In this document: positions 19,442 through 50,948 of the stretch, in pieces
Position numbering within the stretch: the first letter of the stretch is position 1
Layout: each line of letters begins with the position of its first letter
NCBI RefSeq assembly: GCF_001598215.1
Contig: NZ_BCXJ01000005.1
Span: 1 to 64,000, forward strand
Direction of reading: 5' to 3'
Origin: Shouchella clausii
GTDB lineage: Bacteria; Bacillota; Bacilli; Bacillales; Bacillaceae_D
Length of the DNA: 64,000 nt
Notes under the pieces: generated by a model
The model's database searches: none
What the model was told of the DNA's origin: nothing
The model's input: the letters and a program-made list of their open reading frames with translations, nothing else
Translations under genes and position numbers: made by a program

Positions 19442-19692
19442 AAAATCAGACGGCCGTTGGTACAGCTCCACGGGTATTTCACCCCTGCAAGTATTGCTTC
19501 CAGCCCCACTCATAGCTTGCGACGCTCCAAACGCTCGAACCATGACGGTAGGGGAGTATCATTATTCTACTGATAAGTCATCGCTCGTAATTCACCACAA
19601 TTACATTAGATTTCTTGGTTATCGCTCGTTTCTATGGAAAGTCATGGCGCAAGAATCAAGTAGCTCGTAATCAGTAGAACGTGTCTGATTTT
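19442..19692. ncRNA. structured non-coding element, copy A
   Basis: A 251-base element closed by a perfect 10-base inverted repeat (AAAATCAGAC / GTCTGATTTT). Internal helices on the plus strand: GGGTATTTCACCC hairpin; TGcAAG/CTTcCA; CCCC/GGGG; TATCA/TGATA; GTAATT/AATTAC. Unpaired stretches GGGAGTATCATTAT, TATCGCTCG and GTCATGGCG are identical to a second copy at 50690-50948. It lies between the Orf7/Orf8-like regulatory genes and the recombinase. Strand is undecided. No gene of the expected kind is encoded. The RNA nature is inferred from covariation between the two copies. Confidence 0.6.
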
Positions 19693-19836
19693 CCTATTTA
19701 TAATGCATGAGGTTAATCATGCTTTCTTTATCAAAGAACGTTGAAAATTGTACTCCCATCTTGAGTAGTTGCTACAAGAAAAAGGAAAATCCATATGCAG
19801 CATATCTATTTGTAATACAAAGAAATGCTGCCTTAC

Positions 19837-19890
19837 TTCCTCCTTTTTCTTTGCTATTACTACAAATAGAAAGAACCATTTTGCCAAAAA
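19837..19890 (-). promoter_or_regulatory. conserved promoter-like element in front of the recombinase unit
   Basis: On the minus strand TTTTTGGCAAAAT, nine bases, TATTTGTAGTAAT, twelve bases, GGAGGAA. It matches the sequence at 21674-21727 at 44 of 54 positions without a gap. TTGGCA and TGTAGT are 17 bases apart, compatible with a weak sigma-A promoter or an operator. It would drive transcription toward copy A of the structured element and the recombinase. Confidence 0.55.
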
Positions 19891-20056
19891 CGAATGAAAA
19901 TCCAAAAAGAAATCATGAATTGAACTTGCATGTGTTTGGTAAATGTTCTTCATTTGTTGAGCTGTTACGATTAAGAATTTAATACTAATTGGCTATAAAT
20001 TGTTTATGATATTATGTATTTAAAGGAAAGAATAGATAGGATTGGGAGGGAAAAAC

Positions 20057-20707
20057 TTGAACGTTCATGAGTACATAAAATTACTTCGCAAAGCAATCAA
20101 TAATGTAGAAGAAGTGTATTTTGGAAACCAAAATTGGATTGACTCTATGTTAAATGTTCATAATATTAAATCTCAGGATAAAAAGCGGGAAAAATTAATG
20201 CCATATTTGAGTATGCATAATGAACGAGTTTTCTGTTATGAGCTTTATCATCAATTGCGTAAAATTATGGAAGAGAATATGTTGAATGAAAAAGTGATTT
20301 TGCAAGCTGAACTTCGCAAGGCTCAAGTAAGTGATGAAATCACACAATTATTTGGAGTAAATAGTACAGACGGGGTATATTACCCTGACTTCTTAATACA
20401 TGAACCGGGTACATATGAAAATCAAGACTTAATTATTGAAGTCAAAGCTAATCCTAAACTTTCTACAACAGATATGCTAAATGATATTAAGAAAATTGAT
20501 CAATTCATTAATAGATATAACTACAAAAAAGGAATCTTTTTAGCAATAAATGTGAATAAAGAAAGGTATAATCAACTAATGACAAATAATCATCTTCTAA
20601 ATAGTTTAGAAGAACAAATTAATTCTAAAAATGAAATCTTGCTTATGTTTAGAGGGTCAGCAAAGGAGTCCACGATCTCAATAAACCTAGCAAACTTGTT
20701 ACAATGA
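20057..20707 (+). CDS. lone PD-(D/E)XK-like nuclease-fold protein
   Basis: A 216-residue protein starting at TTG six bases after GGGAGGG. Residues 105-132 read as a PD-(D/E)XK core: Pro110-Asp111 (YYPDFLIHE), then 17 residues on the Glu128-Val-Lys130 strand (LIIEVKAN), preceded by a helix with Glu56 (NERVFCYELYHQLR) that could be the third acid. This layout is typical of restriction-endonuclease-fold enzymes. It sits alone, on the strand opposite to all neighbours, inside the element's control region between the regulators and the recombinase, and ends in a strong terminator. The substrate is unknown; a defence or element-maintenance role is possible but not shown. Confidence 0.6.
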   Translation: MNVHEYIKLLRKAINNVEEVYFGNQNWIDSMLNVHNIKSQDKKREKLMPYLSMHNERVFCYELYHQLRKIMEENMLNEKVILQAELRKAQVSDEITQLFGVNSTDGVYYPDFLIHEPGTYENQDLIIEVKANPKLSTTDMLNDIKKIDQFINRYNYKKGIFLAINVNKERYNQLMTNNHLLNSLEEQINSKNEILLMFRGSAKESTISINLANLLQ

Positions 20708-20744
20708 AAAAGCTAAATATTAACTTATAATCATCATGGCCTGC

Positions 20745-20794
20745 AAAACTATCACCACTTCCTTTAATCACCTTTACAAAGTGGTGATAGTTTT
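20745..20794. terminator. bidirectional terminator
   Basis: AAAACTATCACCACTT pairs with AAGTGGTGATAGTTTT (16 bases). It lies after the nuclease-like gene and after the orf8-like gene on the other strand. The rest of 20708-20955 shows no gene. Confidence 0.85.
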
Positions 20795-20955
20795 AGCTAA
20801 TAATAATCATTTGTCTTGTAATCCTCCAAATTGTCTCTTTTCTTATTTAAAACATTTCTGATTTGTTCCTGATACAACATTGTATTTTCTCAAAGCTTTC
20901 TTTATCAAATATCAACTAGGAAGAACGAGGATTAAAATGCTTAAGAATAAAAACT

Positions 20956-21210
20956 CTAAGTCAATTCAAATCTTAATATAGCTGTAATTAATTTTGTTTC
21001 TAAGCGTCTACGCGTATAATCATCTACTACCATTTGAGAAGCACCAAAATCATCTTGTACTAACCGTAACGATAGTTTATTTATATAAGGTTCATAATGT
21101 TTAAGCACTGCGTTTATAGCTTCTACCTCACCCTTTGAAGCTTCTGCAATAATAGAGAAAGGTAACAATTCATTTACTGAATTAAGAGAAATCAATTGAT
21201 TCTGATCCAT
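20956..21210 (-). CDS. Tn916 Orf8-like helix-turn-helix protein
   Basis: An 84-residue protein. Its core LPFSIIAEASKGEVEAINAVLKHYEPYINKLS and tail RRLETKLITAILRFEL line up well with the Orf8-like gene at 51083-51313 (PFSLIVQATDGDTEAIHHIVKHY and GRMQTRLITKVLSFE). The start codon is one of three consecutive ATGs; the last, seven bases after a G-run, is chosen. It overlaps the sigma-like gene, repeating the orf7-orf8 pair of Tn916. In Tn916 these genes control transfer and excision transcription. Confidence 0.85.
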   Translation of the reverse strand: MDQNQLISLNSVNELLPFSIIAEASKGEVEAINAVLKHYEPYINKLSLRLVQDDFGASQMVVDDYTRRRLETKLITAILRFELT

Positions 21211-21628
21211 CATCATTCCCCCCCAATCTCTGTTTTAATTCTTCTAGTGCCTTCTTTCTTTGATATTGAACTGTGCTTCGAGGAAGACCCAATACTTTTC
21301 CGACTTCCTTATCCGTCATATTCAAGAAATAGGATAAAAGAATAACTTCTCGTTTTTTATCAGATAAGTGACAAAGTGCACGAATTAGCTTTTCATTTTT
21401 TAAATTAACTTCATATCCTAAAACTTGAAAATAATACCCCTCCAGGACATAATCATCAATAACTGCAAGCTCTTGAGGTTCAAAATTTGATAAATTTGTA
21501 AAAGATACTTCTACTTCACGCTGGCGTTGTAATTGTCTTTGGATGTTAATCACTTCATTTTTTAAGGTTTTCTTACAATAACTATCAAAAGTATGCTTTT
21601 TATGCTCTTCATAGGAAGTTAACTTCAT
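21182..21628 (-). CDS. Tn916 Orf7-like sigma-70 region 4 regulator
   Basis: A 148-residue sigma-like protein. Its C-terminus has LSDKKREVILLSYFLNMTDKEVGKVLGLPRSTVQYQRKKALEELKQR, a region-4 helix-turn-helix, matching the Orf7 relative at 51310-51732 (LSEKKRNIILLYYFMDMNDTEIAKLL). The start MKLTSYEE was preferred because Orf7 starts similarly; an in-frame ATG 13 codons upstream with AGGAGG is an alternative. Preceded by a terminator and the conserved promoter-like element. Likely activates the element's own operons. Confidence 0.85.
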   Translation of the reverse strand: MKLTSYEEHKKHTFDSYCKKTLKNEVINIQRQLQRQREVEVSFTNLSNFEPQELAVIDDYVLEGYYFQVLGYEVNLKNEKLIRALCHLSDKKREVILLSYFLNMTDKEVGKVLGLPRSTVQYQRKKALEELKQRLGGNDDGSESIDFS

Positions 21629-21673
21629 AATTTTCAGCTCCTTCCATTTTCGTAAAAGCAGTGATAGCATTAA

Positions 21674-21727
21674 TTCCTCCTCTTCCTTTGTCATTACTAC
21701 AAATAGGAGTACATATTTTGCCAAAAA
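21674..21727 (-). promoter_or_regulatory. conserved promoter-like element in front of the sigma-like gene
   Basis: The partner of 19837-19890: the blocks TTTTTGGCAAAAT, TATTTGTAGTAAT and GGAGGAA occur with the same spacing on the minus strand. Here it directly precedes the Orf7-like regulator, so regulator and recombinase units may share one control signal. Confidence 0.55.
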
Positions 21728-21755
21728 TGAGAGAAGATCCTTATAAAGACAAGTA

Positions 21756-21788
21756 AAAAACCCGAATAACAAATAAGTTATCGGGTTG
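21756..21788 (-). terminator. intrinsic terminator upstream of the Orf7-like gene
   Basis: On the minus strand AACCCGATAAC and GTTATTCGGGTT form a stem followed by TTTTTT. It would stop transcripts entering from the metal-resistance genes, or act as an attenuator for the regulatory unit, as at the corresponding place in the Tn916-like copy. Confidence 0.75.
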
Positions 21789-21864
21789 TTGTAATAAAAG
21801 TATTGATTCTTTATTCTATATCTATTATTAATTTGTTATTAGCGTCTAATATCTAGTAGAGAGA

Positions 21865-21909
21865 AATAAAGCAACCCTCTCTTATAATGAAGATACAGGT
21901 TGCTTTATT
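21865..21909. terminator. terminator downstream of the MFS gene
   Basis: AATAAAGCAACC (21865-21876) and GGTTGCTTTATT (21898-21909) form a 12-base stem. It lies about 150 bases after the stop of the minus-strand transporter gene; nothing else is visible in 21910-22059. Confidence 0.8.
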
Positions 21910-22059
21910 GTGTTATTTCAAATGATGTTTACATTAAATTCAATCTACCGTACCATGGTTGGGTATTTGTTTATTTAAAATATATACACAAAACTTATTT
22001 CATTTTGTGCTTTTTAATCCCTCTTAAGAATGAATGATACTTATATACCCTCTTACTTA

Positions 22060-23613
22060 TTATTCCTTTTCATTCTGCTGTGCTTTACCAGAAGGCGGAA
22101 TATGGCGTAATCGTGTTGCGGAAATAATTGCTGCAACTCCTGCAATTATAGCTGAAACAATAGCGGCAGTATTTAATCCACTGGTGAACGCATTTTGAGC
22201 CGCCATAATTAAAGACTCCCCAAGCGTTCCTGAAAGATTAGTAACTGAAACAATGGCACCATCAATACTGTCTGAAGCTGCTGCTGCAACATTCGGAGGT
22301 AAATCTTGAGGTAGTGTATCGACAATCTCACTCCGGTAAGCTGCAATACCAACACTTCCAATTACTGCAACCCCTAATGAAATACCTAAATCATTAGCTG
22401 TTGTCGCAAGACCAGAAGCCCCTCCTGCTTTTTCCGGCGGCACAGAGCTAACTACTAAATCGGTTGTTAAAGCCATCGATGGAGCTACACCAGGATAGGT
22501 GACCACAAAACTTGCAATAACAAGCGCAAGCCCCGTACCAGCGTCAAGTTGCGTAAAGAGAATATAGCCAATCACTTGAATGGCTAGACCGATTGCAATA
22601 ACATTACCTGGACGAAAACGGCGTGCCATCATCGGTGAAAGTGTAGAGACTACAATCAATACTGCGGCGGCTGGAAGAATAGCAAATCCTGCTGCCATCG
22701 GCGAAAGTCCTTGTACTTGCTGTAAATATTGAGTGAAAAGCGAATACACTCCACCAAGCGCTGCTGCCGAAAGTAAGAATACACTAAGTGCACCGCTAAC
22801 AGTACGATTTTTAAACAGCCGAACATCTAGTAAAGGTTGTTTAGCACGCAATTGTCGAACCACAAACCAAATTCCCACAAGTATACCTGCAACTAACAAA
22901 GTAATTGTAGGACCTACTGCAGCCTGTGCTGCAAATTGTTTAATACTGTAAATTATCGCTAGCAATGCAGCAACTAATAAAAGAGCACTGAATAAATCAA
23001 GTCTTCCACTATTTTGATCACGATGTTCAGGTACTAGAATAGGTGCACCGAGTGCAACAATCAGCATAACTGGAACGGCTACTAAAAAGGTTGCTTGCCA
23101 TCCAAATACTTCTAAAAGCAGACCGCTTAATAATGGACCTAGAGCTACACCAGCTGAAATTCCACCTGCCCAAATACCAATCGCAACTCCTCGTTGTTCA
23201 GCATTTTGAAACAGAACGAAAATCAGTCCAAGTGTGGCAGGTACCATCATGGCTGCTGCTAAACCTAAAATAGCACGCCAAGCAATCATCATGGATGGAT
23301 CACTCGTTAATGCTGCTAATATAGAAACAACTCCAAACAAGATAGCGCCTATTACCATTAATAACCGTTTTCCTACTCTATCTCCAAGAACTCCCATTGC
23401 GACTAGGAACCCCGCCATTACAAAACCGTATATATCAAGAATCCACAACAATTGTGTACTGGAAGGCCCCAAGTCAGCTGCCATACTAGGAGCAGCTAAG
23501 AACAAAATAGTTAACATCATGAACAATAATGTTGAAGGTAAAACTAACACCACAAGCCCCCACCATTGTCGGGCACTTGCACGAGGCACTTCAGGATTAT
23601 TCGAATCAGCCAT
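22060..23613 (-). CDS. MFS drug transporter, DHA2 family (QacA/SmvA-like, 14 helices)
   Basis: A 517-residue membrane protein with roughly 14 hydrophobic segments. Helix 2-3 has LGDRVGKR, the MFS motif A, and WIAW-like Arg in MIAWRAILGLAAAMMVPATL fits the drug/H+ antiporter motif B. The GISAGVALGPLLSGLLLE stretch is motif C of drug exporters. This set identifies the DHA2 family that pumps out cationic antiseptics and drugs. The start follows AGGAGGT by seven bases. Its GC content is higher than the flanking genes, suggesting separate acquisition. Confidence 0.87.
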   Translation of the reverse strand: MADSNNPEVPRASARQWWGLVVLVLPSTLLFMMLTILFLAAPSMAADLGPSSTQLLWILDIYGFVMAGFLVAMGVLGDRVGKRLLMVIGAILFGVVSILAALTSDPSMMIAWRAILGLAAAMMVPATLGLIFVLFQNAEQRGVAIGIWAGGISAGVALGPLLSGLLLEVFGWQATFLVAVPVMLIVALGAPILVPEHRDQNSGRLDLFSALLLVAALLAIIYSIKQFAAQAAVGPTITLLVAGILVGIWFVVRQLRAKQPLLDVRLFKNRTVSGALSVFLLSAAALGGVYSLFTQYLQQVQGLSPMAAGFAILPAAAVLIVVSTLSPMMARRFRPGNVIAIGLAIQVIGYILFTQLDAGTGLALVIASFVVTYPGVAPSMALTTDLVVSSVPPEKAGGASGLATTANDLGISLGVAVIGSVGIAAYRSEIVDTLPQDLPPNVAAAASDSIDGAIVSVTNLSGTLGESLIMAAQNAFTSGLNTAAIVSAIIAGVAAIISATRLRHIPPSGKAQQNEKE

Positions 23614-23724
23614 GTTGCACACCTCCTGTATTTGATATGATACTCACCCAATTATTACTTTTTAAATCTTTCAACATCTGGAATTCCTCCTTCATTATGA
23701 AAGATATTAGATTTCATTTCCTAA

Positions 23725-24039
23725 TTATTGTGTAGCAAAATCTTTGATTATTTTTTCATTTAATTTTAAGGTAGTTAATCGATCGACTTCTATTCCATTT
23801 TTAAATAGAATTAAAGTAGGAATACCTATCACATTATACCTCTGAACAGTAAATTCTAAGTTTTTATCTACATCGACATCATAAAACATAACATTTTTAA
23901 TTTCTTCTGCTGTCGATTCAATAATAGAAGCAACCTGCTGACAACCTTGACACCATCCTGCTGTAAAGTTGAGTACAACAGGTTTTTCTTCCATTTTGAC
24001 TAAAGTACAAAAGTCATCTGTTTTCAATTCCTTTAGCAT
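23725..24039 (-). CDS. thioredoxin-family protein
   Basis: A 104-residue thioredoxin fold with active site WCQGC near residue 29 and the cis-proline in IGIPTLILFKNG. It is clearly a tandem paralogue of the next gene (WCPGC), but less acidic, and has an unusual Gln in the CxxC loop, which changes redox potential. Together with TrxB downstream in the cluster it forms a disulfide-reducing set. Confidence 0.88.
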   Translation of the reverse strand: MLKELKTDDFCTLVKMEEKPVVLNFTAGWCQGCQQVASIIESTAEEIKNVMFYDVDVDKNLEFTVQRYNVIGIPTLILFKNGIEVDRLTTLKLNEKIIKDFATQ

Positions 24040-24088
24040 AGAGATATCTCCTTCACCATGAAAGATAGTACCTTAACTTTAACCTCTA

Positions 24089-24403
24089 TTATTGTAATGA
24101 AAAGTCCCGAACGACTTCCTCACTTGCTTCCGGTGCAGTTACTCTGTCTGCCTCTTCCCCGTTTTTGAAAAGAATTAAAGTTGGAATACTCATCACCTGA
24201 TATTGCTGAGCAAACTCCAGCTCTTCATCTACATCAACATGATAGAATGCAATCTCTTCTTCCAACTCTTCTGCAACTGATTCAACGACAGGAGCCAGCT
24301 GCTTACAGCCCGGGCACCAGTCTGCAGTAAATTTCAACACAACAGGTTTTTCTGCTGCTGTTACCAATGTGTCAAACTCGTTGGCTCTCAACTCTTTAAC
24401 CAC
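24089..24403 (-). CDS. thioredoxin-family protein
   Basis: A 104-residue thioredoxin with active site WCPGC (about residues 29-33) and SIPTLILFKNGEE. It is followed by a tandem paralogue and preceded on the minus strand by trxB, so the three genes are probably one operon. The CPGC variant, rather than CGPC, is common in small thioredoxin-like proteins from Firmicutes resistance islands. Confidence 0.88.
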   Translation of the reverse strand: MVKELRANEFDTLVTAAEKPVVLKFTADWCPGCKQLAPVVESVAEELEEEIAFYHVDVDEELEFAQQYQVMSIPTLILFKNGEEADRVTAPEASEEVVRDFSLQ

Positions 24404-24440
24404 TGCAAATCCCTCCTTTCCTTTTCCTTGTTTAAAAACG

Positions 24441-25370
24441 TTATTTTAAAGGATTCGTCTCTATAAATGTCTCTACATCCATGGCAGCCATGCAACCCGT
24501 TCCAGCAGCTGTGACAGCCTGCCTGTATCTTTGATCTTGCACATCACCTGCTGCAAACACACCAGGTATATTCGTTTTTGTCGTACCAGGTTCCACTTTT
24601 ATATAACCATTTGGATAAATATCAATTGCCTCTTCTAGAAAATGCGTATTGGGAATATGCCCGATAGCCAAGAAGACACCGTCTGTTTCAATAAGTTGTT
24701 CTTCCTGGGTTTCTTTATTCTTAAGACGAATACCCGTGACCTTACTATCTTGAGAAAGAATTTCTACTGGAGTACTATTAAAAATCCAAGATATTTTCTC
24801 ATTATTCATTGCACGATCCTGCATAATCTTGGAAGCTCGCAGTTGATCTCTGCGATGAATGACATGCACTTCTTTCGCAAACTTTGTTAAAAATAAAGCT
24901 TCTTCCATGGCAGAATCTCCACCACCAACAACAACCACTTTTTTGTCACGGAAAAAGAAACCATCACATGTTGCACAGGTACTTACACCACGCCCAAGGT
25001 TTTCTGCCTCTCCAGGAATCTCCAGCATTTTCGCCCGGGCACCAGTAGAAATAATCACAGATTCCGCTTGAATTTCCCCAAGACCATCTGTTTCTAGCCG
25101 AAAGGGACGAGTTGAAAAATCTACCTTTTTTACTAAAGCCGTTTTAAATTGTGCTCCAAATCGCTTAGCTTGTGCCCGCATGGTCTCTATCAATTCTGGC
25201 CCCATCACTGGATCAGAAAAACCCGGGTAATTTTCGACTTCTGTTGTCAATGTTAACTGTCCACCTGGTTCTGGTCCTTCTAAGATGAATGGTTCCATAT
25301 TCGCTCTTGCTAAATAAATAGCAGATGTTAATCCAGCAGGACCCGTTCCTAAAATGGCCGTTTTATACAT
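24441..25370 (-). CDS. trxB: thioredoxin reductase
   Basis: A 309-residue flavoprotein: FAD loop GTGPAGLTSAIYLARAN at the N-terminus, redox-active CATCDG in the middle, NADPH loop VVGGGDSAMEEALFL, and C-terminal PGVFAAGDVQDQRYRQAVTAAGTGC. It transfers electrons from NADPH to thioredoxins, here encoded next to it. The start MYKTAILG follows AGAGGTGGA; the five-residue-longer frame lacks a ribosome site. It is a second copy relative to a usual chromosomal trxB, and the island location suggests a metal- or thiol-stress role. Confidence 0.95.
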   Translation of the reverse strand: MYKTAILGTGPAGLTSAIYLARANMEPFILEGPEPGGQLTLTTEVENYPGFSDPVMGPELIETMRAQAKRFGAQFKTALVKKVDFSTRPFRLETDGLGEIQAESVIISTGARAKMLEIPGEAENLGRGVSTCATCDGFFFRDKKVVVVGGGDSAMEEALFLTKFAKEVHVIHRRDQLRASKIMQDRAMNNEKISWIFNSTPVEILSQDSKVTGIRLKNKETQEEQLIETDGVFLAIGHIPNTHFLEEAIDIYPNGYIKVEPGTTKTNIPGVFAAGDVQDQRYRQAVTAAGTGCMAAMDVETFIETNPLK

Positions 25371-25542
25371 AATCCACCTCTTCATTTTAAAAAATTTATA
25401 TATTTTAAAAGGACATTCAGTGAAGGATAAACTGTGCCTTCACTGAATGTTAGGCTATCAACCTAAACTTTCCTCTAAATCGTTTCAGCAGACGATTTAT
25501 TATTAGAAAGAGAAACTTACCATACTAGGATTGCCTTTTACA

Positions 25543-25638
25543 TTATTTCTTCGATGAATCTTTTGGCTGGTCTGTTTTTGTGTTCTCAGTCTTTGCTGAT
25601 TGTTTTGGTGAGCAGCAAGAGCACGCCGGTTTAGCCAT
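25543..25638 (-). CDS. tiny Cys-rich, Lys-rich protein
   Basis: A 31-residue ORF with a strong ribosome site (AAGGAGGTGAT) five or six bases before its ATG. The product starts MAKPACSCCSPKQ: three cysteines in a CxCC cluster, then a charged hydrophilic tail. Placement between trxB and a glutaredoxin-like gene suggests a small metal-binding or redox peptide. I know of no family name. Confidence 0.65.
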   Translation of the reverse strand: MAKPACSCCSPKQSAKTENTKTDQPKDSSKK

Positions 25639-25682
25639 TTATATCACCTCCTTAAAGTAGGTGTTATATGATAAACCACTCA

Positions 25683-25961
25683 TTATCCAATTTCTAAGAG
25701 CCGTTTAATCTCCTCTTTATTCATTTCAAACCCTGTCATACTTTTTCTTGTTTTTCTTAGACCTAAAATGGAGGATTGAGAAAAGACAATTCCAGGAACC
25801 ACTCTAGCCCCTGTTCGACTTTTCAGCTCTTTTTCTTTTTCTGGTTGCTTCGTTAAATCATATTGCTTGTGTGGTATACGATGTGTTTTCAAGAATTTCT
25901 TCAATTCCTGGCAATCAGAACAAGTTGGTCTTGTATAGATTTCTAATTGATAATTAGCCAT
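25683..25961 (-). CDS. glutaredoxin-like protein
   Basis: A 92-residue thioredoxin-fold protein with YTRPTCSDCQELKKFLKTH (active site CSDC, residues about 14-17) and the cis-Pro motif RVVPGIVFS near residue 54. It resembles NrdH/glutaredoxin-type proteins more than Spx/ArsC. Its GTGAR stretch replaces the usual glutathione-site residues. Function probably reduction of a cysteine disulfide in the island's thiol set. Confidence 0.75.
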   Translation of the reverse strand: MANYQLEIYTRPTCSDCQELKKFLKTHRIPHKQYDLTKQPEKEKELKSRTGARVVPGIVFSQSSILGLRKTRKSMTGFEMNKEEIKRLLEIG

Positions 25962-25999
25962 TTATCTCGCTCCTTCCATTGGATCTATATAACAATGAT

Positions 26000-26905
26000 T
26001 TACTCTTTTACTTCTAAAATAAATGGATACACATGAATTTCTCCGTCAAATTTGAATTCTGCCCATACTTTATACATCCCTGGATTTGTGAAATGGGCGT
26101 TAAACGTTGTAGAGTCATCTGACGCAGGGTGAACATGGATATATTCTTCCACCTCTTCATCTACAATCACCACATGACCTAAAGCACCAAGGTGTGTTTC
26201 CGGCTGTTCCCCTTGCATATCAAAGACTAAAGGAACTTCTTCGCCGGCAGTTGCCTCGATTTCCTCTAACGTCACTGTTTTACCATCTATTTCTTTTGTC
26301 CATTCATTATCCGCATGTAAATGTGCGTTAGCTGTTTCTTCTGTTCCAATCTGTAAAAGATTTGGAGCAGGCGTATAAGCTTTGTTTTCCGGTACAATAT
26401 CCACAAATGCCTGATACGTTCCATCTGCTAAAGCTTGATTAACGCGGAATCTTCCTTCTGCTTCCTTTTCTGGGTGCAGATGATAATAATCTTCTAAATC
26501 GTTAGAAATCAGGATAAAATGCATTTCTTTTTCATGCTCAACAGCGAGTTCAGGCGCTGCTCCAGTATCATCTTCCAATGAAATGACAAGTTCTTCATTA
26601 TCATAGGATACATCCGTTTTTACTTCTGAATCTATTTCATGTCCATGTTCATGCTCGTGCTCATGTTTATGATCCATGTCTTCATCCTCCTCTTGATTAC
26701 TTTCTGTATGATGTTCATGATCAGTTGCCTCTTCTTGTGAACCTTCATCGTTATCATGTTCCTCATGCTCAGCTTCTTCGTCACTATGTCCATCGTGTTC
26801 CATTTCTCCACTGGCCAGAGGATTGTTACCAGTAATCACACTATATCCTGCAAAAACAATAATTACATAGACAATCCCTAGGGATACCCACTTTTTTACG
26901 GACAT
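26000..26905 (-). CDS. membrane-anchored His/Glu/Asp-rich metal-binding protein
   Basis: A 301-residue protein with one N-terminal membrane helix (about 5-25) and a ~70-residue linker extremely rich in His, Glu and Asp (HEHEHEHGHE and similar). The rest is a beta-rich domain containing HFILISNDLEDYYHLHPE and EEYIHVHPASDDSTTFNAHFTNPGMYKVWAEF, a duplicated pattern with HxHP motifs. It is located directly after copA and overlaps none. Extracytoplasmic metal binding is inferred from composition and from the copZ-copA operon. No named family assigned. Confidence 0.75.
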   Translation of the reverse strand: MSVKKWVSLGIVYVIIVFAGYSVITGNNPLASGEMEHDGHSDEEAEHEEHDNDEGSQEEATDHEHHTESNQEEDEDMDHKHEHEHEHGHEIDSEVKTDVSYDNEELVISLEDDTGAAPELAVEHEKEMHFILISNDLEDYYHLHPEKEAEGRFRVNQALADGTYQAFVDIVPENKAYTPAPNLLQIGTEETANAHLHADNEWTKEIDGKTVTLEEIEATAGEEVPLVFDMQGEQPETHLGALGHVVIVDEEVEEYIHVHPASDDSTTFNAHFTNPGMYKVWAEFKFDGEIHVYPFILEVKE

Positions 26906-26907
26906 AA

Positions 26908-42476: not shown

Positions 42477-42567
42477 ATGATCAATCCTCCTAGTGGTAGT
42501 CGTATTACGAATTCCTTTTCTATATAGTGTACAAAAGATATTCTTCTTATTACTAATACACTATACC

Positions 42568-43043: not shown

Positions 43044-43057
43044 AAAAATTCATCTGT

Positions 43058-43104: not shown

Positions 43105-43126
43105 AATCCATTAAATAAATTCTCTG

Positions 43127-43801: not shown

Positions 43802-45182
43802 TTCGTTCCCTCCTTGCCAACTTAATAATGATACTTGTGCCTTGTCCTATCTTGCTTTTTGCTTCAATACTACCACCATGGGATTCAATAATTTCTTTTG
43901 AAATAGCTAGTCCTAGCCCAGTTCCACCGCTTTGCCTTGAACGTGATTTTTCCACACGGTATAATCGGTCAAATATATATGGAAGATTTTCTGCAGGAAT
44001 TCCTTCTCCTTCATCCGTGGTTGTAATAATGAAATACTGATCAGTCTGCTTTACCTCTATTAAGATTTTTGAACCTTCCTTAGAATGCTTTTTCGCGTTA
44101 TCTAAAATATTTATTAACACTTGTTGAAAGCGTTCTGGATCAATATAAGCTTTTATTTCATCCAGGCAATTCACATGAATTGATATTTTTTTCTCTGCAA
44201 GTGCAGGACGAATACGTTCATTTATTCTTTGAATAAGTTCACATAAATTCACTTGTTCACGTCTAATTCGAAAATTATTTTGATCTATTTTAGCTAATTC
44301 AAATAAGTTCTTAATTAATACTGTTAATTGCTCTGTTTCTTCTCGAATTATTTCAACATATCCTTTAACTTCTTCTTCAGACGTACCTTGACGATTAATG
44401 ATATCTGCATATCCTTTTATATATGTTAATGGCGTCCGCAGCTCATGTGACACACTGGCCAGGAACTCATTTCTAGCCTGTTTTAGTTCTTTCAACTCCT
44501 GTGATAGCTTGGTGATGGAATTAGCTAATTCACCTAATTCATCCTTCCTTTTGATATGTAGCGCTACATTATGCTTTCCTTTACTTAATTGTTCCGTCTC
44601 TTCTTTCATTTTAATTAACGGTTGTGTAATAAATCGTGATAAAATAAATATGGTAATAATTGTTAATAACACAGTAATGAAACTAACAATCAAAAACTGA
44701 TTGCTAAGCTGATCAACTGTTTTCTTTACATAAGTCGTATCAGCAAACATAAACACATGTCCCTTATGCTCGCCATTTATTGTAATAGGACTATCTGTCA
44801 CAATATAATTTCCTTCACTCCACTTATCTTCAACTATTTTACCTTCTGTCGGTATTTCTTCATCATTAGTATGTTCTACCACATTAATCATTTCTTGTTC
44901 TACAGGATCAGATGAAATAATAATCTCGCCCTTTTCATCTGTAATGATAACGATAAATTCAGACGCTGATTCCATAATACCGACATGTTCTAATGTAGGT
45001 TGATCGAAATGATCTTCCAAAACGTCACGATGAGTGTTTCCACGTGCCAGCAGACTATTCATAACTTCTTCAACACGATCATTTACTAGGTTTGTATATA
45101 AAATAAAAAACAAAAAAGTTTCAATAACCAGAATAAATACAAAAAACAGTAATCCAATTTTAAAAGATAATTTATTAAACAT
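43794..45182 (-). CDS. sensor histidine kinase
   Basis: A 462-residue kinase: membrane helix 7-27, extracytoplasmic domain ~28-165 (acidic, with EHFDQPTL and EEIPTEGK), second helix ~167-190, HAMP, then ASVSHELRTPLTYIKGY with the phospho-His, and ATPase boxes NILDNAKKH and GTGLGLAISKEI. The sensor domain has few His/Cys, so direct metal sensing is uncertain. Kinase precedes regulator, the reverse of the common order. RBS GAGGTGAAG before the ATG. Confidence 0.92.
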   Translation of the reverse strand: MFNKLSFKIGLLFFVFILVIETFLFFILYTNLVNDRVEEVMNSLLARGNTHRDVLEDHFDQPTLEHVGIMESASEFIVIITDEKGEIIISSDPVEQEMINVVEHTNDEEIPTEGKIVEDKWSEGNYIVTDSPITINGEHKGHVFMFADTTYVKKTVDQLSNQFLIVSFITVLLTIITIFILSRFITQPLIKMKEETEQLSKGKHNVALHIKRKDELGELANSITKLSQELKELKQARNEFLASVSHELRTPLTYIKGYADIINRQGTSEEEVKGYVEIIREETEQLTVLIKNLFELAKIDQNNFRIRREQVNLCELIQRINERIRPALAEKKISIHVNCLDEIKAYIDPERFQQVLINILDNAKKHSKEGSKILIEVKQTDQYFIITTTDEGEGIPAENLPYIFDRLYRVEKSRSRQSGGTGLGLAISKEIIESHGGSIEAKSKIGQGTSIIIKLARRERNV

Positions 45183-45191
45183 ACTTCACCT

Positions 45192-45923
45192 CTATACCCA
45201 ATAAGTAAGTGTATCCAACACACCAAGAATTAAAAGTAACAAACCAGCAATCTTTTGGGTGATAGCTCCAATTTTTCTACTTTTTTTTAATATGGCACCA
45301 CTTGCTCCAAAGTACCAAATTAAAAAGATAACAGTCAATAGGGGAAGAGAAGTACCAATTCCGAAGACCGCTGGAAGAACTGCCCCATACGAAGTAATCA
45401 GCACTATTGGCATTAATGTTAGCAGAAAGAGTACAAACATAGTCGGACAAAAAGCTAGTGTAAAACTAACTCCCATTAAAAAACTGCCTAAATAACTGTC
45501 TTTAAATACCTTTGTGGGAAAAGTAAAAATTCGCCATGTTTTCTTCCACCGAAATAATCCAATCATAAATAACCCAATTACAATTAGCATTGGTCCTATT
45601 GCTTTACGTATAATAGGCAGAATTTGTGACAGTGAACTATATACCTCTCTACCTAACAGCCAAACAATAATTCCTAATATACAATAAACTACAATCTTTC
45701 CTAAGACAAATAACCATACATGTAACCATGGAACTTTATCAACTAGTGATTTATTGCCATAGATTGTAATTGCACTGAGGTTACTTGTAAGCTGACAAGG
45801 TGCAAGTGCCCCAACAACACCAAGAAAAAAAGCAAATAATAATGGTAAATGCTCCAAGCCATTCGTGATTTCTATTATTGGTTCCATTAATGTATAGCTT
45901 ATTCGGTTAAATAATTCAAACAT
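45192..45923 (-). CDS. DsbD/CcdA-family membrane thiol-redox protein
   Basis: A 243-residue membrane protein with about six helices. Conserved Pro-Cys pairs GALAPCQLTSN (Cys43) and LAFCPTM (about Cys158) match the CcdA/DsbD transmembrane electron carrier, which passes reducing power from cytoplasmic thioredoxin to outside thiols. Thioredoxins and a reductase are encoded in the same island. It precedes the kinase by nine bases on the same strand and likely shares its transcript. Confidence 0.8.
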   Translation of the reverse strand: MFELFNRISYTLMEPIIEITNGLEHLPLLFAFFLGVVGALAPCQLTSNLSAITIYGNKSLVDKVPWLHVWLFVLGKIVVYCILGIIVWLLGREVYSSLSQILPIIRKAIGPMLIVIGLFMIGLFRWKKTWRIFTFPTKVFKDSYLGSFLMGVSFTLAFCPTMFVLFLLTLMPIVLITSYGAVLPAVFGIGTSLPLLTVIFLIWYFGASGAILKKSRKIGAITQKIAGLLLLILGVLDTLTYWV

Positions 45924-46030
45924 ATAAATTCAACTCACTATATAATAAATTAAATTGATCTTATCATTAACTTCTCGATATATGTGCCTCTATTAATTTG
46001 CTAGTTTTTTATTTTTTTTACTGCTTTCGG

Positions 46031-46246
46031 TTATTTTTGTTTTATTACTGATTTAAGCCGTTCATATTCCAATTCGTCAATTTCACCTTTAGCTAAACGT
46101 TCTTTAATTATTTGTAATGGGGTTTTCTTTTTATCTCCCTTTATAAAATTTGTGACTAAATAAACACCAAAACTAATTAATCCAATCCAGAAAATAATCA
46201 TTAGGAGCATTGGCCAAAAGGCTACATGCCCATTCATCATATGCAT
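46031..46246 (-). CDS. small SHOCT-domain membrane protein
   Basis: A 71-residue protein: one membrane helix (about 10-34) and a C-terminal SHOCT motif with IIKERLAKGEIDELEYERLKSVI. Such proteins are common beside copper-resistance genes and two-component systems in Firmicutes. The Met-rich N-terminus (MHMMNGH) could bind copper, but this is unproven. Confidence 0.82.
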   Translation of the reverse strand: MHMMNGHVAFWPMLLMIIFWIGLISFGVYLVTNFIKGDKKKTPLQIIKERLAKGEIDELEYERLKSVIKQK

Positions 46247-46527
46247 TTTAAATCACCTTCTCATTTTATATCTTTTCATTTATTATAGCTCTTATTTATC
46301 AAGAAAATATGCAGACATGTCAAAAAATGATTCCTCTTCTTTTACAAAACAACTTCTACGTTTTATGACAGATAGCCTATTAAGAAAATAAATCAAGAGG
46401 TTTTATAAATGACGTAAAACATTCACATATTAAATAGTCCATAGAACTTTAAACAATCTGCACATAATCTGCAAAAAAATAGGGTACTGTAACATTGAAT
46501 TCAGAATAATGAAAGGAGTAACATAAA

Positions 46528-47127
46528 ATGGCGAATAAAAAAATGATAATAGGATTGGTATCTTTACTTGCCATCGTCATACTCTCCGCATGTGCGGAGC
46601 AAACGGAAGATACAAATAACGATAACAACACGGAACAAAACTCTGAGGATAGTACACATGATGATATGGAGGGCATGGATCACTCTGAAATGCATATGTC
46701 TGGATCTGGAGAGGTACCGGAAGGATTACAGGAAGCAGACAATCCAACCTATGAAGTTGGCAGTAAGGCGATCATTGAATCAAATCATATGGAAGGTATG
46801 AAAGGTGCGGAGGCAACAATAGTTGGAGCTTATGATACCACTGTTTATACCGTATCTTATATGCCTACAACAGGTGGTGAGGAAGTAAGCAATCATAAGT
46901 GGGTCATTCATGAAGAATTGGAAGATCCCAGCGAAACACCATTAGAACCTGGTGATGAAGCTGTCCTAAATGCTGATCATATGGAAGGCATGGATGGTGC
47001 GACCGCTCAAATTGATTCGGCCGAAGAAACCACAGTATATATGGTTGATTTTGCTTTAACTACAAGTGGAGAAGAAGTAACAAACCATAAATGGGTCACC
47101 GAAGATGAATTGTCCCCTATGGAATAA
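46528..47127 (+). CDS. YdhK/CopL-like DUF1541 lipoprotein
   Basis: A 199-residue lipoprotein (lipobox ILSAC) with an acidic Met/His linker (MEGMDHSEMHMSG) and two DUF1541 repeats: SKAIIESNHMEGMKGAEATIVGAY...NHKWVIHEEL and EAVLNADHMEGMDGATAQI...NHKWVTEDEL. DUF1541 includes B. subtilis YdhK and the S. aureus CopL surface copper-binding protein encoded with copB. The HMEGM pair in each repeat is a plausible metal site. Binding of surface copper is inferred. Confidence 0.87.
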   Translation: MANKKMIIGLVSLLAIVILSACAEQTEDTNNDNNTEQNSEDSTHDDMEGMDHSEMHMSGSGEVPEGLQEADNPTYEVGSKAIIESNHMEGMKGAEATIVGAYDTTVYTVSYMPTTGGEEVSNHKWVIHEELEDPSETPLEPGDEAVLNADHMEGMDGATAQIDSAEETTVYMVDFALTTSGEEVTNHKWVTEDELSPME

Positions 47128-47196
47128 AATTAGAATTAACTAGCGTAAATTTTAAAGACGAGCAACTCTGTCTTTTAGTGTATCATCATTATAAAT

Positions 47197-47238
47197 TAGA
47201 GAAGAAATCTTCTACAAAAGATATCTTCTCTATTTTTT
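47197..47238 (+). terminator. terminator after the YdhK-like gene
   Basis: TAGAGAAGA and TCTTCTCTA arms followed by T6 on the plus strand. Confidence 0.8.
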
Positions 47239-47365
47239 ATTGAATCCGATAACTAAGTTGCTATTGAGCAAGAAAGTTATGTTAATATTTTTTTCATTCT
47301 GCAAAGAATCTGCATAAATACCAATTATTATTAAAAAAAATCTATTCAAATGGAGTGTTCATTTT

Positions 47366-47713
47366 ATGTATGATTCATACCTTCTAAATGAAAAAAATCC
47401 CCAACTAAGTCCAACTGGATTATTTTGTACATTAACCAGTAGTTATTCTATTACCCTCCCCAAACCTATTAGGGATATTTTAAATTTGAACCCTGGGGAT
47501 GAGATAGTAATTAGTTTAAGATCTCAATCTCATGAATTAGTAGTGCAAAAATTTGGTGGAAATTCACTAGAGAATATAATGATATTGAATGAAAGAGGTT
47601 CATTCAGAGTACCAAAAGAGTTTATTAAATTTCTATATTTAGAAAAAGGGGACACCTTTATTTTATACCTTAATAGAGAGCAAAAAATCGTTTTGTTGAG
47701 AAAACGATCATGA
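47366..47713 (+). CDS. double SpoVT-AbrB-domain protein
   Basis: A 115-residue protein with two AbrB-like beta motifs: TLTSSYSITLPKPIRDILNLNPGDEIVI (about 22-49) and NERGSFRVPKEFIKFLYLEKGDTFILYL (about 74-101). It probably forms a swapped-hairpin DNA-binding dimer in a single chain. Targets unknown; it could regulate island genes, including the neighbouring cell-wall protein. GGAGTG precedes the ATG by eight bases. Confidence 0.75.
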   Translation: MYDSYLLNEKNPQLSPTGLFCTLTSSYSITLPKPIRDILNLNPGDEIVISLRSQSHELVVQKFGGNSLENIMILNERGSFRVPKEFIKFLYLEKGDTFILYLNREQKIVLLRKRS

Positions 47714-47875
47714 CATTTTGTTTAATCGTCAAGATAAAGACAACAGTTTTAAAACGCTCCTTACCTTTCATCTATTTTTAGAAATTTACGAGCAGCGGGG
47801 CAAGACGTTTACATAAAAAATGCTGTCGATTATTGTAACAAAACTTATTCAATTCTGTAATATTTAATCATATTA

Positions 47876-47892
47876 TGTAACCTTTATGTAAT
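47876..47892 (+). promoter_or_regulatory. WalR (YycF) box
   Basis: TGTAAC, five bases, TGTAAT: an exact match to the WalR consensus TGTWAH-N5-TGTWAH. It is about 130 bases before a secreted NlpC/P60 gene, the kind of cell-wall gene WalRK controls. A candidate -35 (TTGACA at 47917-47922) follows closely. Confidence 0.7.
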
Positions 47893-48019
47893 TTTATTAT
47901 GATTTCTATTGTGATGTTGACATGCTAAACTTTATCTAAGAGTGAAAAATTTATTACATAGAATTTCAATCTTAACTGCAAAACAACCAGAATTATAAAC
48001 ATTAAAAGGAGGAACACTT

Positions 48020-48934
48020 ATGGCAACATCCCGTCTTAACATGAAAAAATATGTACTTTCAAGTACATTTGCTGCTTCTATTGCATTAACTCCATTTTTA
48101 GGAGATAGTGTGTTGGCAAGTGCAGGTGAAGACTCTTCTAAAGGTGATATCTCTATTGAAGAAAGCAACTTATCCAATCTTCAAGTTGAGCAACAAGCAC
48201 CAACCACTACAGAAAATGTAAACACATCCCTTCTCCGACAAGGTAGTACGGGATCAGAGGTAGAGAATTTACAAAGTACTCTACAGGCACTTGGTTACTA
48301 TTCTTATGATGCAGATGGTATTTTTGGTGATATTACTGCACAAGCAGTGAGGAATTTCCAAGCAGATCAAGGATTACAAGTAGATGGTATTGTCGGGTCA
48401 AATACAAAGAACGCATTAGCATTACCCACTGACACACCTTCTTTACCTCAGGACTCCTTATCTGAAACGAATGATGAAGAAATTGTTCTTAAAGAGACTG
48501 GAAATTCAAATGAATTAAATAACACGAACATATCTAATGGGCCAAGCGAATCTGTAGCTATTTCCCCTAGTCAAGATAATATTGTTTCTGCAGCAGAGAG
48601 TGTGCTTGGAACACCTTATGTCTGGGGAGGAACTACTGCTTCTGGTTTAGATAGTAGCGGCTTTATTCAATATGTATTTAATCAAGTAGGTATTGATGTT
48701 GCCCGTACACACCGTGATAATTGGGTAAATACTGGCGTGCATGTTGGCTCTCCTAGTATTGGTGATATTGTATTCTTTGAAGGTACTTATGACGTTCAAG
48801 GCGCTTCCCATAGTGGTGTTTATATTGGAAATAATCAAATGATTCATTCAGGGGATAATGGAGTGGTTGTAGCAGATATAAGCATTGATTACTGGCAAAA
48901 TCACTATATTGGTGCAAAATCTTATACACAATAA
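48020..48934 (+). CDS. secreted peptidoglycan-binding NlpC/P60-like protein, catalytic Cys replaced by Ser
   Basis: A 304-residue secreted protein. Signal peptide (MKKYVLSSTFAASIALTPF, cleaved after SVLASA), then PG_binding_1 (about 71-133: LLRQGSTGSEVENLQSTLQALGYYSYDADGIFG), a Ser/Asn linker, and an NlpC/P60 domain (about 185-303). Where active members have D-C-S-G, this one reads Asp211-Ser212-Ser213-Gly214 (codon AGT at 48653-48655), so the nucleophile is lost. The later His (SHSGVYIG) and overall fold are retained. The related Orf14 at 58167 keeps D-C-S-G. Likely a wall-binding or inactive homologue, or a Ser enzyme. AAAGGAGG precedes the start. Confidence 0.85.
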   Translation: MATSRLNMKKYVLSSTFAASIALTPFLGDSVLASAGEDSSKGDISIEESNLSNLQVEQQAPTTTENVNTSLLRQGSTGSEVENLQSTLQALGYYSYDADGIFGDITAQAVRNFQADQGLQVDGIVGSNTKNALALPTDTPSLPQDSLSETNDEEIVLKETGNSNELNNTNISNGPSESVAISPSQDNIVSAAESVLGTPYVWGGTTASGLDSSGFIQYVFNQVGIDVARTHRDNWVNTGVHVGSPSIGDIVFFEGTYDVQGASHSGVYIGNNQMIHSGDNGVVVADISIDYWQNHYIGAKSYTQ

Positions 48935-48954
48935 ATAACGATAAAAACAAGCTT

Positions 48955-48980
48955 AAGCCATCATAATTTGATGGCTTTTT
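48955..48980 (+). terminator. terminator after the NlpC/P60-like gene
   Basis: AAGCCATCA and TGATGGCTT with T-run following. Confidence 0.85.
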
Positions 48981-49026
48981 AAAATAAACAAAGTATAAAT
49001 TTTTGATTATCTTTTTATATATTCTT

Positions 49027-49069
49027 AAATGCTCGTATAGCCTTATTCTATTGGCTTGCGAGCATTTTT
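49027..49069 (-). terminator. terminator at the int end of the Tn916-like element
   Basis: AAATGCTCG / CGAGCATTT with an inner AGCC/GGCT pair and T5 on the plus side. It lies just beyond the int stop and marks the outer region of the element. Confidence 0.75.
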
Positions 49070-49125
49070 ACTGTTGGTAGATACTTCACGTTTCATTACA
49101 TATTTCTTTATATTTTAGCTGTCAA

Positions 49126-49147
49126 AAGTGGTAAATAAGTAGTAAAT
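49126..49147. repeat. Int arm-type (DR2-like) tandem repeats
   Basis: Two adjacent 11-base repeats, AAGTGGTAAAT and AAGTAGTAAAT, differing at one position. DR2 sites of this type bind the N-terminal domain of Tn916 Int, and they lie between int and the element's end, as here. Confidence 0.7.
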
Positions 49148-49160
49148 TCATTTGTTACTA

Positions 49161-50374
49161 CTAAGCAGCTAGTTGTTCCTTTTGTTTTCTTTTTTCCAAA
49201 CGTTCCACTTCTGCCATTGCGGAATCGAATGTTGCGTGAGCGTAATAGTCCAGTGTCATAGTTATATTTGCGTGTCCCATAATGTACTGCAATGCTTTTG
49301 GGTTCATACCCTCATTTGCATAGTTGGTACAGAATGTATGTCGCAAAATATGTGGAGTGATGTGTGGTAACTTATCCTCATTATACTTGTTGTACTTCTT
49401 AACAAGGTTCCTCAACATATTTCCGTAATCAGTAGCAACCTTTGGATACCCTTTACGATTAACAAAGAGAAAATCACTATATCCATCAATCACAACACGT
49501 TTACCATTTTTACGATTGGCTAACACTCGCATAAATGCTTGATAGGCTTCTTCAACCATAGGAACTTGACGCTCGCCACTTTTGGTTTTTGGTGTTTCAA
49601 TGTAGTACCCAATTTCAGTATCTCTCAATAGTTGATGGTCTACATGGATAAGACGATTTTCAAAATCTAAATCGGAAAGGGTCAAACCACCAAACTCTGA
49701 AATACGAAGACCTGTTTTTAAGAGTATCAGAATTTCATCATAATTTTTGCTGTAGGTCTTATCAGCTTTCGCAAAGGCTAACAGTTTTTCTTTCTGTTCT
49801 TCTGTTAATGCAATCTTAGGAACAGTATCATCATCAATCACTGTGTTCAGTTGAAAATCAAATGGATTCTTCCGAACATAATCATCTTGTATGGCAATAT
49901 AGAACGAAGCCTTTAAAGAACGCTTATAATTATTGATGGTTGAATAAGCAAATCCATTTTCATTCTAATCGCCCATTCCTTAGCGTCAGAAGGCTTAATA
50001 CTGTCAATGCTTCTTACACCTAACTTGTCTTTTTCCAAAATATCCATCAGATATTTACGTCCCGTTTGAGTGGGTTTTCTAACCTTTGGTCTTTGAGCAT
50101 TTTGTTTGGCGTAAAGTTGACAGAGTGTCATTTTCTTCCCTACAACATCAATACCATCATGAATATCTTTCTGTACCTCTGCTACTTTCTCTCGAAGTGA
50201 AACACAATCACGCTTACCTGCTGGGACTCTATCCGTAGATACAAGTTTCCATGAATATACCGATTGTGGCAGTCCAAATGTATCTACATACTTGTATAAA
50301 TACCTTCCGTCTTTTCGTTGGCTCTCTCCTGTTTTTAAGATTCGACCTTTGTTGTCCCGTCTTTTTTGTGACAT
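49161..50374 (-). pseudogene. int: Tn916-type tyrosine integrase, frameshifted
   Basis: Two reading frames together cover a full Tn916-like Int. The N-terminal part (start near 50374) reads MSQKRRDNKGRILKTGESQRKD through SDAKEWAIRM. The C-terminal part carries the catalytic Arg (TGLRISEFGG), HILRHTF, GHANI and the nucleophile Tyr in MTLDYYAHA. They are out of frame at 49959-49960: after ATG, two A's stand where Tn916 has six bases (codons Ser-Glu), i.e. a four-base deletion. Translation as written would stop after ISVL. Element excision is therefore probably blocked unless another integrase helps. Confidence 0.9.
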
Positions 50375-50454
50375 GACAATTGCTCCTTTCCTTATATGGA
50401 AAGAGCCTTGATACGACTTAAGACGATCATATCATATACAAGACTCTGAGACGA

Positions 50455-50658
50455 CTAGATAACATCTAATGTATCTATTACTTTTTCAAACTGTTTCCGC
50501 TTAATCTGAATACGGTTACCATTCATAATGAGCCAGTTTTCATGTTTATTTTCTTCTGCCAAGCGACGAAGTTTGTTTTCGCCAATACGAAAATATTGTG
50601 ACGCTTCTTCAATGGTTAAGGTATAACGCTCCCAGATAGGAATGTCAGCCTGTTTCAT
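50455..50658 (-). CDS. xis: excisionase Xis (Tn916 type)
   Basis: A 67-residue winged-helix directionality factor, [30 protein letters not shown]..., the same length as Tn916 Xis. The start follows AAAGGAGG by five bases; a longer in-frame start is rejected. It precedes int by about 80 bases on the same strand. It binds DNA at the element ends to direct excision, but its partner Int is broken here. Confidence 0.95.
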
Positions 50659-50689
50659 AAAATCCTCCTTTCCATAAACGTGTTTTACA

Positions 50690-50948
50690 AACAATCAAAC
50701 AGCTTTAGCAAAGCTCACTGGATTTTCACCTCTACATGGTTCTCATGTAGCCATACCCATTGCCTGCGACGTTTCTATCACGTTCGGACTGTGGCTGTAT
50801 GGGAGTATCATTATCACGATAAGAAAGTCATAGCAGTAATCTTGCTAAGGATTACTTACGAATCACTAACATGTATCGCTCGCTGTCTTGCAAGGTCATG
50901 GCGTATTAGTTCGGCGGCTCTTTTCTTATCGAAACGTATTTGATTGTT
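50690..50948. ncRNA. structured non-coding element, copy B
   Basis: A 259-base element closed by AACAATCAAA / TTTGATTGTT. Internal plus-strand helices: AGCTTTagcAAAGCT; CTACATGgttctCATGTAG; CCATAC/GTATGG; TATC/GATA; GTAATC/GATTAC. It shares GGGAGTATCATTAT, TATCGCTCG and GTCATGGCG with copy A and the same order of helices. It lies between orf8 and xis, the position where some Tn916 annotations place the doubtful orf5. RNA function is inferred; strand undecided, although a G-U type pair (GACGT/ACGTT) slightly favours the plus strand. Confidence 0.6.

Follow-up and report, generated by a model that had tools for sequence, protein, structure and literature searches.

Two copies of a probable canT-type antitermination RNA beside different recombinases in Shouchella clausii

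The window studied here, i.e. the whole stretch of 64,000 nucleotides (nt) that was analysed (positions 1-64,000 of contig NZ_BCXJ01000005.1, assembly GCF_001598215.1 of Shouchella clausii), carries two copies, A and B, of a structured element. An initial annotation, made from the sequence alone, had located both, and we find them at the same coordinates, both on the minus strand. We consider it very probable that both copies serve as RNA signals in processive antitermination systems of the canT type, a reading that rests here on homology, a two-domain structure with covariation, a conserved gene context and a conserved boxA. canT of Tn916 is a cis-acting, orientation-specific processive antiterminator RNA, described experimentally in 2024 (Wirachman & Grossman, PMC11658703). 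The features of the copies are listed below; R1 stands for the model that we built of the 5' domain, and L001 for a Tn916-type element from an Enterococcus faecium plasmid (not the Tn916 record itself).

19442-19694, minus strand: copy A, whole canT-like RNA element; helix P1 pairs 19683-19692 with 19442-19451
19553-19684, minus strand: 5' domain of copy A; model R1, 100.2 bits, E = 3.2e-22; outside Rfam coverage
19468-19565, minus strand: 3' domain of copy A; RF02913 pemK RNA, 57.7 bits, E = 9.1e-8 in the 64-kb scan
19555-19565, minus strand: AUAAUGAUACU, inter-domain joint of copy A; invariant across the 25 R1 sequences
50690-50948, minus strand: copy B, whole putative canT element; 80.9% identity to the L001 locus; fold z = -2.73
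50802-50939, minus strand: 5' domain of copy B; model R1, 95.1 bits, E = 5.4e-21
50715-50814, minus strand: 3' domain of copy B; RF02913 pemK RNA, 56.4 bits, E = 1.8e-7 in the 64-kb scan
50804-50814, minus strand: AUAAUGAUACU of copy B; its first three bases are those altered in Tn916 canT(S3), mapped by counting on L001

The two-domain structure of the element

On the minus (RNA) strand copies A and B have AUAAUGAUACUCCC, CGAGCGAUA and CGCCAUGAC in common, which are the three identical unpaired stretches pointed out earlier. The stems proposed in the initial annotation could be recognised as well: its closing stems are helix P1, with the arms AAAATCAGAC/GTCTGATTTT and AACAATCAAA/TTTGATTGTT in the two copies, GTAATY/RATTAC is P5, CCCC/GGGG and CCATAC/GTATGG are P6, and its hairpin slot is P7. 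TATC/GATA belongs to the longer helix P2, which closes the 5' domain (CUACUGAU/AUCAGUAG in copy A, CGAUAAGAA/UUCUUAUCG in copy B). Folding of copy A RNA gave z = -2.36 against shuffles.

Whether Rfam already describes the element had been left as a question, and the answer differs between its two halves. We scanned the window with all Rfam 15 models: the 3' half of both copies is RF02913, pemK RNA, scoring well above the gathering cut-off of 34.8 bits, whereas the 5' half matched no Rfam family, and all other matches of the copies were at chance level. The two copies are the only RF02913 matches in the whole source genome. The RF02913 model has 61 positions and starts at AUAAUGAUACU; the 5' domain, P1 and boxA lie outside it, and Rfam gives its type only as 'Cis-reg'. 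Of 299 genomes from the order, 9 contain RF02913, as do 26 of the 398 surveyed across the phylum; the source genome is counted in both figures, and the 14 controls have none.

Relatives were collected with a search pattern derived from both copies and the Rfam consensus. It yielded at least 117 stretches from genomes of species, plus 16 from viral contigs, and the collection is no census. There were 142 places of ATAATGATACT with enough flank, those too near a contig end not being taken in. Six without the 3' pattern were dropped, among them places in L004-L006, RF02913 members that were regained in the 98-source R1 test described below. Of the remaining 136, redundancy reduction at 95% identity kept 91, and seven of these were removed by eye as chance occurrences (no 5' motifs; several from Bacteroidota), which left 84 including the two window copies; analyses needing long flanks have n = 83, 82 or 79, window copies included. 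Automatic alignment and folding (MAFFT/RNAalifold) found hardly any consensus structure in the 84 members because loops differ in length; anchored parsing solved this. All anchors were fitted by 45 of the 84, of which 39 were kept after redundancy removal. The anchored comparison shows one plan: P1 encloses everything; within it AYACRUU precedes P2, which holds AGC, P3 (itself holding CGC-CAUGAC, P4 and GA-GCG), P5 and GCGAYGAC; AUAAUGAUACU, P6, P7, the GGUGAAAYUCC hairpin and P9 follow. A pseudoknot GCGAC-GUCGC, checked by eye, was dropped, as it is not kept in L001.

R1 was built from 25 relatives with the window and L001-L017 left out, its training set including Tn916-type relatives of copy B (e.g. 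L032 and L130) and one Bacillaceae locus, L078. In the window it matches exactly two places, copies A and B. Since the anchor fit selects for the 5' domain, R1 was run on 98 sources without the anchor filter, and it matched 92 of them (93 matches; the 25 training loci are among the 92), weakly in L034 and L164 (E about 0.006). The misses were L027, L047 (cut by the contig start), L094, L096, L101 and L167. In the 398 genomes of the phylum an R1 match stood immediately before 34 of 42 RF02913 matches, at one constant offset.

The initial annotation had named a lack of significant covariation as one outcome that would speak against a conserved structure; we found strong covariation. In an arm-swap test on the 39 non-redundant members, with their relatedness left unmodelled, own arms paired better on average than swapped arms in all eight helices (0 of 5000 permutations each), with z of 16.1 for P1, 17.5 for P2, 8.2 for P3, 10.8 for P4, 12.2 for P5, 6.7 for P6, 10.1 for P7 and 4.9 for P9. 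Member by member, own arms beat 90% of the swapped ones in 35 of 39 for P2, and in only 10 of 39 for P6 and for P9. The alignment A5 (92 distinct rows), which unlike the arm-swap test was fitted to the structure, has 87.8% of its cells paired versus 55.0% in shuffles and 33-48% with slid partners, and 915 cells changed on both sides versus 274. Both sides vary in 26 of 29 pairs, a count also reached by 397 of 500 shuffles; the three CGC/GCG pairs hardly vary.

Gene context and the boxA-like sequence

Neighbouring genes, identified by Pfam matches except for the antisense ORF over copy B, are arranged around the copies as follows.

17440-19236, minus strand: large serine recombinase of element A (Pfam)
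19263-19409, minus strand: SHOCT_2 mini-ORF (open reading frame) of 48 amino acids (aa), in xis position directly 3' of copy A (Pfam)
20956-21216, minus strand: orf8-like HTH_16 protein of element A (Pfam)
21182-21772, minus strand: orf7-like sigma-70 region 4 protein of element A (Pfam)
49161-50374, minus strand: Tn916-type integrase of element B, split into two reading frames (49913-50374 and 49161-49841) (Pfam)
50455-50694, minus strand: Tn916-Xis-domain ORF directly 3' of copy B (Pfam)
50680-50943, plus strand: orf5-like antisense ORF of 87 aa over copy B
51083-51313, minus strand: orf8 (HTH_16) of element B (Pfam)
51310-51963, minus strand: orf7 (sigma-70 region 4) of element B (Pfam)

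Both copies thus lie in sense orientation between an orf8-type regulator and xis or the recombinase, which is the location of canT. The earlier statement that each copy stands between orf7/orf8-type regulators and a recombinase (serine in A, tyrosine in B) agrees with these neighbours, except that about 1.2 kb with a plus-strand ORF separates the orf8-like gene from copy A. That ORF (20042-20707) has a weak TnsA-like match (E 0.005, under the Pfam cut-off). A direct repeat of 74 nt with 78% identity (19830-19903 and 21667-21740) and an exact 15-nt repeat (19721-19735 and 20895-20909) suggest a partial duplication or insertion within 19700-21772.

Several other features of the window were noted. 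Just past the serine recombinase of element A, at 17370-17415, there is a strong bidirectional terminator-like stem, with 20 pairs on the plus strand, which is a possible antitermination target. RF03532 SQ2397 ('cis-regulator of HTH transcription factor') was found at 52096-52333 on the minus strand (172 bits), adjoining the orf9 HTH gene; RF03532 also occurs near pemK RNA in L173 and in L001. Where L001 has tet(M), element B has genes for CadD, a cadmium-type P-ATPase and an ArsR-type regulator (53052-56321), beyond the Cys_rich_KTR gene. A group II intron (RF00029, 61748-61832) with a reverse-transcriptase-like ORF lies within the transfer genes (61748-62925).

We then assessed the context in 82 fetched loci, the window left out, taking as downstream gene a same-strand ORF of at least 250 aa that starts within 1.5 kb. 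Such an ORF was present in 56 loci, and in 50 of these it was a recombinase, a tyrosine integrase in 25 loci and a serine recombinase in another 25. The pairing with unrelated recombinases, first noticed on two copies, is therefore general, and the RNA travels with the promoter-regulator end rather than with one recombinase type. Sigma-70 region 4 was matched by 40 and HTH_16 by 27 of the 124 upstream ORFs, and the 44 small ORFs preceding the large gene comprised 18 HTH_17, 9 Tn916-Xis and 4 SHOCT_2 proteins, with no PemK domain among the 44. The vanB element of Enterococcus faecalis pMG2200 (L172) fits the same arrangement: its R1 (94.4 bits) and RF02913 (57.8 bits) matches lie between sigma/HTH genes and xis-int beside the vanB cluster.

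boxA is the established name of a sequence of rRNA operons (rrn) and lambda nut sites that is bound by NusB-S10. For boxA and NusB-S10 we refer to PMC12691694. A boxA-like sequence stands 5' of each copy:

19726-19739, minus strand: boxA-like GTTCTTTGATAAAG 5' of copy A; 11/14 versus rrn boxA, reached by 4% of regional shuffles and thus weak alone
50955-50968, minus strand: boxA-like GTTCTTTGACAACT 5' of copy B; 13/14 versus rrn boxA, reached by 0 of 50 shuffles

An upstream boxA is hence clear for copy B and weaker for copy A. Among the relatives, many elements are preceded by GTTCTTTGAcAACT or GTTCTTTGACAAAG, and the pattern C[TC]TT[GA]A[ACT]AA was found 115-300 nt upstream of 63 of 82 elements; the opposite strand has it in 1 and the downstream side in 2 of the 82, and shuffles have it in 3.9%. 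A looser boxA pattern gave 70 upstream, 11 on the other strand and 7 downstream (of 82), with 15.9% of shuffles, and when the whole 14-mer was scored, 51% of 83 elements reached 11/14 versus 3.1% of shuffles. As no 16S gene was found in the source assembly, rrn boxA was compared in four relatives. There most occurrences of GTTCTTTGAAAACT form pairs spaced by about 1.8-2.1 kb, and the sequence precedes 16S or 23S rRNA in all four loci checked; it is the rRNA-operon boxA. The likeness to rrn and nut boxA thus consists in GTTCTTTGAAAACT upstream of an antitermination signal; the difference is that the boxA of the canT type is joined to a large structured RNA, and that a published fragment keeps its activity although its boxA is cut. 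A TTGACA-like upstream string was considered as the -35 box of a promoter and rejected, as no matching -10 was seen by eye and the agreement with rrn boxA was better.

Comparison with Tn916 canT and the competing explanations

The copies resemble Tn916 canT in their place between orf8 and xis, their strand, the sequence and the antisense orf5 (both in copy B) and the S3 site in AUAAUGAUACU. With a 351-nt query, copy B is 80.9% identical to the orf8-xis region of L001; it is the counterpart of Tn916 canT, and its function is known by homology. Copy A, linked through the models rather than by plain identity, is a diverged form that goes with a serine recombinase and would be a new member. In the inactivating mutation canT(S3), TGC replaces ATA at nucleotide 283, counted from the orf8 stop (PMC11658703). 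By counting, this position is base 3185 of L001, the first base of AUAAUGAUACU, and the RF02913 match in L001 (3185-3285, 55.0 bits) starts at this very base, so that the experimental and the comparative lines meet at the same bases. Of the two domains, deletion 162 leaves only the first half of the 5' one and a small remnant of the 3' one. The canT authors folded single sequences and, as their text has it, did not pursue sequence/structure analyses or the RNA structures of relatives; a text search of PMC11658703 returned no mention of boxA or NusB. Full-text searches of the open-licence literature found no paper linking canT with RF02913 or RF03082. To the extent of these searches, five points are new: the 5' domain that Rfam lacks, the identity of canT with RF02913, the boxA, the rule for the gene context, and the connection with dinG RNA (RF03082, see below).

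Other antiterminators that act as RNA on their own transcript are EAR (eps operon RNA), put of HK022 and conAn2 of pLS20 (PMC11658703, PMC8955417). We rejected a relation to conAn2, as the first 49.9 of 65.8 kb of pLS20 gave neither an R1 match at E <1 nor an RF02913 match. EAR, which presumably has its own Rfam entry, did not match the copies, for which only RF02913 and chance-level families were returned.

Several observations weigh against the canT-type reading. Of the 82 loci, 26 lack a downstream gene as defined above, and six of the 56 large downstream genes (L043, L045, L067, L083, L111 and L118) are not recombinases, four being ParA-like. Eight of the 42 RF02913 matches in the 398-genome survey lack a preceding R1 match, although two of the eight, L164 and L169, matched R1 in the less strictly filtered 98-source test. 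The single-sequence fold of copy B is about equally good on both strands (minus z -2.73, plus z -2.56). In the published work, S3 had little or no effect within a 400-bp fragment, and a 291-nt fragment with the mutated region was inactive (PMC11658703); a simple model does not account for these fragment results. Finally, the published active 452-bp canT fragment starts inside boxA (TTGAAAACTG). Its activity with a cut boxA means that the full boxA is not needed for the terminators tested, which weakens the idea of boxA as an essential part, and it is for this reason that we propose a second, Rho-directed role for boxA.

The strongest competing explanation is a cis-regulatory leader, similar to a riboswitch or an attenuator, acting on the next gene only, i.e. 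xis or the recombinase. It is in line with the small xis-type ORF that follows the element in many loci and with the Rfam type Cis-reg of RF02913. We find it improbable nonetheless, as Tn916 canT acts without other Tn916 genes and in a lacZ reporter causes read-through of foreign terminators; terminators of Tn916, Bacillus subtilis, Escherichia coli and lambda were read through, gatB and rrnB among them (PMC11658703). Besides recombinase genes, the same 5' domain stands before genes of ParA families, four among the 56 large ones downstream, and before genes whose helicase match is weak.

Even less probable, and indeed very unlikely, is a single-stranded DNA structure serving excision, recombination or transfer, for which the mobile-element context beside recombinases could be quoted. 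The helices of the minus strand contain 121 G-U versus 68 A-C combinations (20 versus 2 in P2), an excess that is absent in P3 (15 versus 17) and P4 (6 versus 6) taken alone; boxA is strand-specific; the element is kept with two unrelated recombinase types; and the published effect on transcription depends on orientation (PMC11658703). The initial annotation had pointed to an RNA or DNA structure controlling excision or transfer. The structure and the connection with transfer stand, but the element would act in cis as an RNA in antitermination and not as DNA in excision.

A plus-strand coding gene orf5, already contradicted for Tn916, where mutants in the start and stop codons of orf5 show wild-type conjugation (PMC11658703), deserves next to no credence in spite of the 87-aa ORF over copy B and an excess of antisense ORFs (32 of 79 elements versus 12.8% of shuffles; sense ORFs in 12 of 79), as the helices covary, 47 of the 79 elements lack such an ORF, copy A (no plus-strand ORF of at least 60 aa) among them, and the excess can stem from sense motifs whose stops (TAA and TGA in ATAATGATACT) fall on the sense strand only. 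The earlier exclusion of a coding orf5 is thus upheld, and the ORF over copy B is most likely a by-product of the RNA sequence.

Alternative 3' domains and the proposed mechanism

The canT-type reading may extend to RNAs with other 3' domains. In the 398 genomes R1 gave 46 matches in 28 genomes: the 34 before RF02913, two before RF03082 'dinG RNA' and ten before neither. RF03082 itself has five matches in four of these genomes, and R1 lies directly upstream of all five, scoring 67.7, 64.1, 54.9 and 46.3 bits and a weak 16.6 bits (E 0.0076); three of these five R1 matches had escaped the stricter filters of the genome survey. dinG RNA thus has the same 5' domain and a different 3' domain; neither RF02913 nor RF03082 is listed with a clan in Rfam, and the window copies gave no match to RF03082 at E up to 10. 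The upstream gene of the dinG loci encodes sigma-70 region 4 in L188, L190 and L191, with none by Pfam in L192; downstream there is a weak DEAD-helicase match in L190 and L191, and no Pfam match in L188 and L192.

Nine of the ten remaining cases were examined, their 3' types being described by eye. A third kind of 3' sequence stands behind a boxA-like sequence and the R1 domain in L179-L182, L186 and L187, where in L182 an additional stretch precedes it; Rfam gave no match to this 3' sequence at E up to 0.1. Of its three upstream genes scanned, two (L186 and L187) have sigma-70 region 4 and one (L179) is UPF0122, while the downstream gene is a serine recombinase in L179, L181 and L187 and an integrase-like ORF in L180, none being seen in L186. 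L184 and L185 are different again, and in L174 the familiar sequence ends after the 5' domain. The best reading of these data is that canT-type antiterminators combine a shared 5' domain with alternative 3' domains. We go one step further and somewhat favour the idea that canT is one form of a modular superfamily of antiterminator RNAs in mobile elements of Bacillota, in which an rrn-type boxA and one common 5' domain are combined with 3' domains that can be exchanged (pemK RNA, dinG RNA and at least one without an Rfam match).

In the mechanism that we propose, a transcript from the orf7-type promoter would cross the genes of the sigma-like and HTH regulators, after which boxA, the 5' domain (P2-P5, with unpaired AYACRUU, CGCCAUGAC, GAGCGA and GCGAYGAC), AUAAUGAUACU and the pemK 3' domain (P6-P9) would be made, P1 closing the whole. 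The folded nascent RNA would act on the very polymerase that made it, probably by direct contact, as the canT authors also suspect (PMC11658703), and the modified polymerase would read through intrinsic terminators past xis and the recombinase. After excision and circularization, transcription might continue across the junction into the transfer operon. boxA may add protection through NusB-S10, in which case Rho is the factor most likely held off. That copy A and the further relatives work by antitermination is what we infer from this analysis, the published assays being those of Tn916.

If correct, this reading identifies processive antitermination as the function of pemK RNA and probably also of dinG RNA, and it adds the structural comparison that the canT paper left aside. 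The question of how canT RNA alters RNA polymerase would become directly testable in terms of which unpaired motifs and which domain are needed and what role NusB-S10 plays. A modular superfamily, if true, would account together for two Rfam families of unassigned function; the 3' domain would then be the variable part, fitted to host or polymerase, and boxA a second, Rho-directed arm. The distribution suggests that many integrative and conjugative elements of Bacillota, with either recombinase type and including the vanB element, gate their transfer genes by the same RNA.

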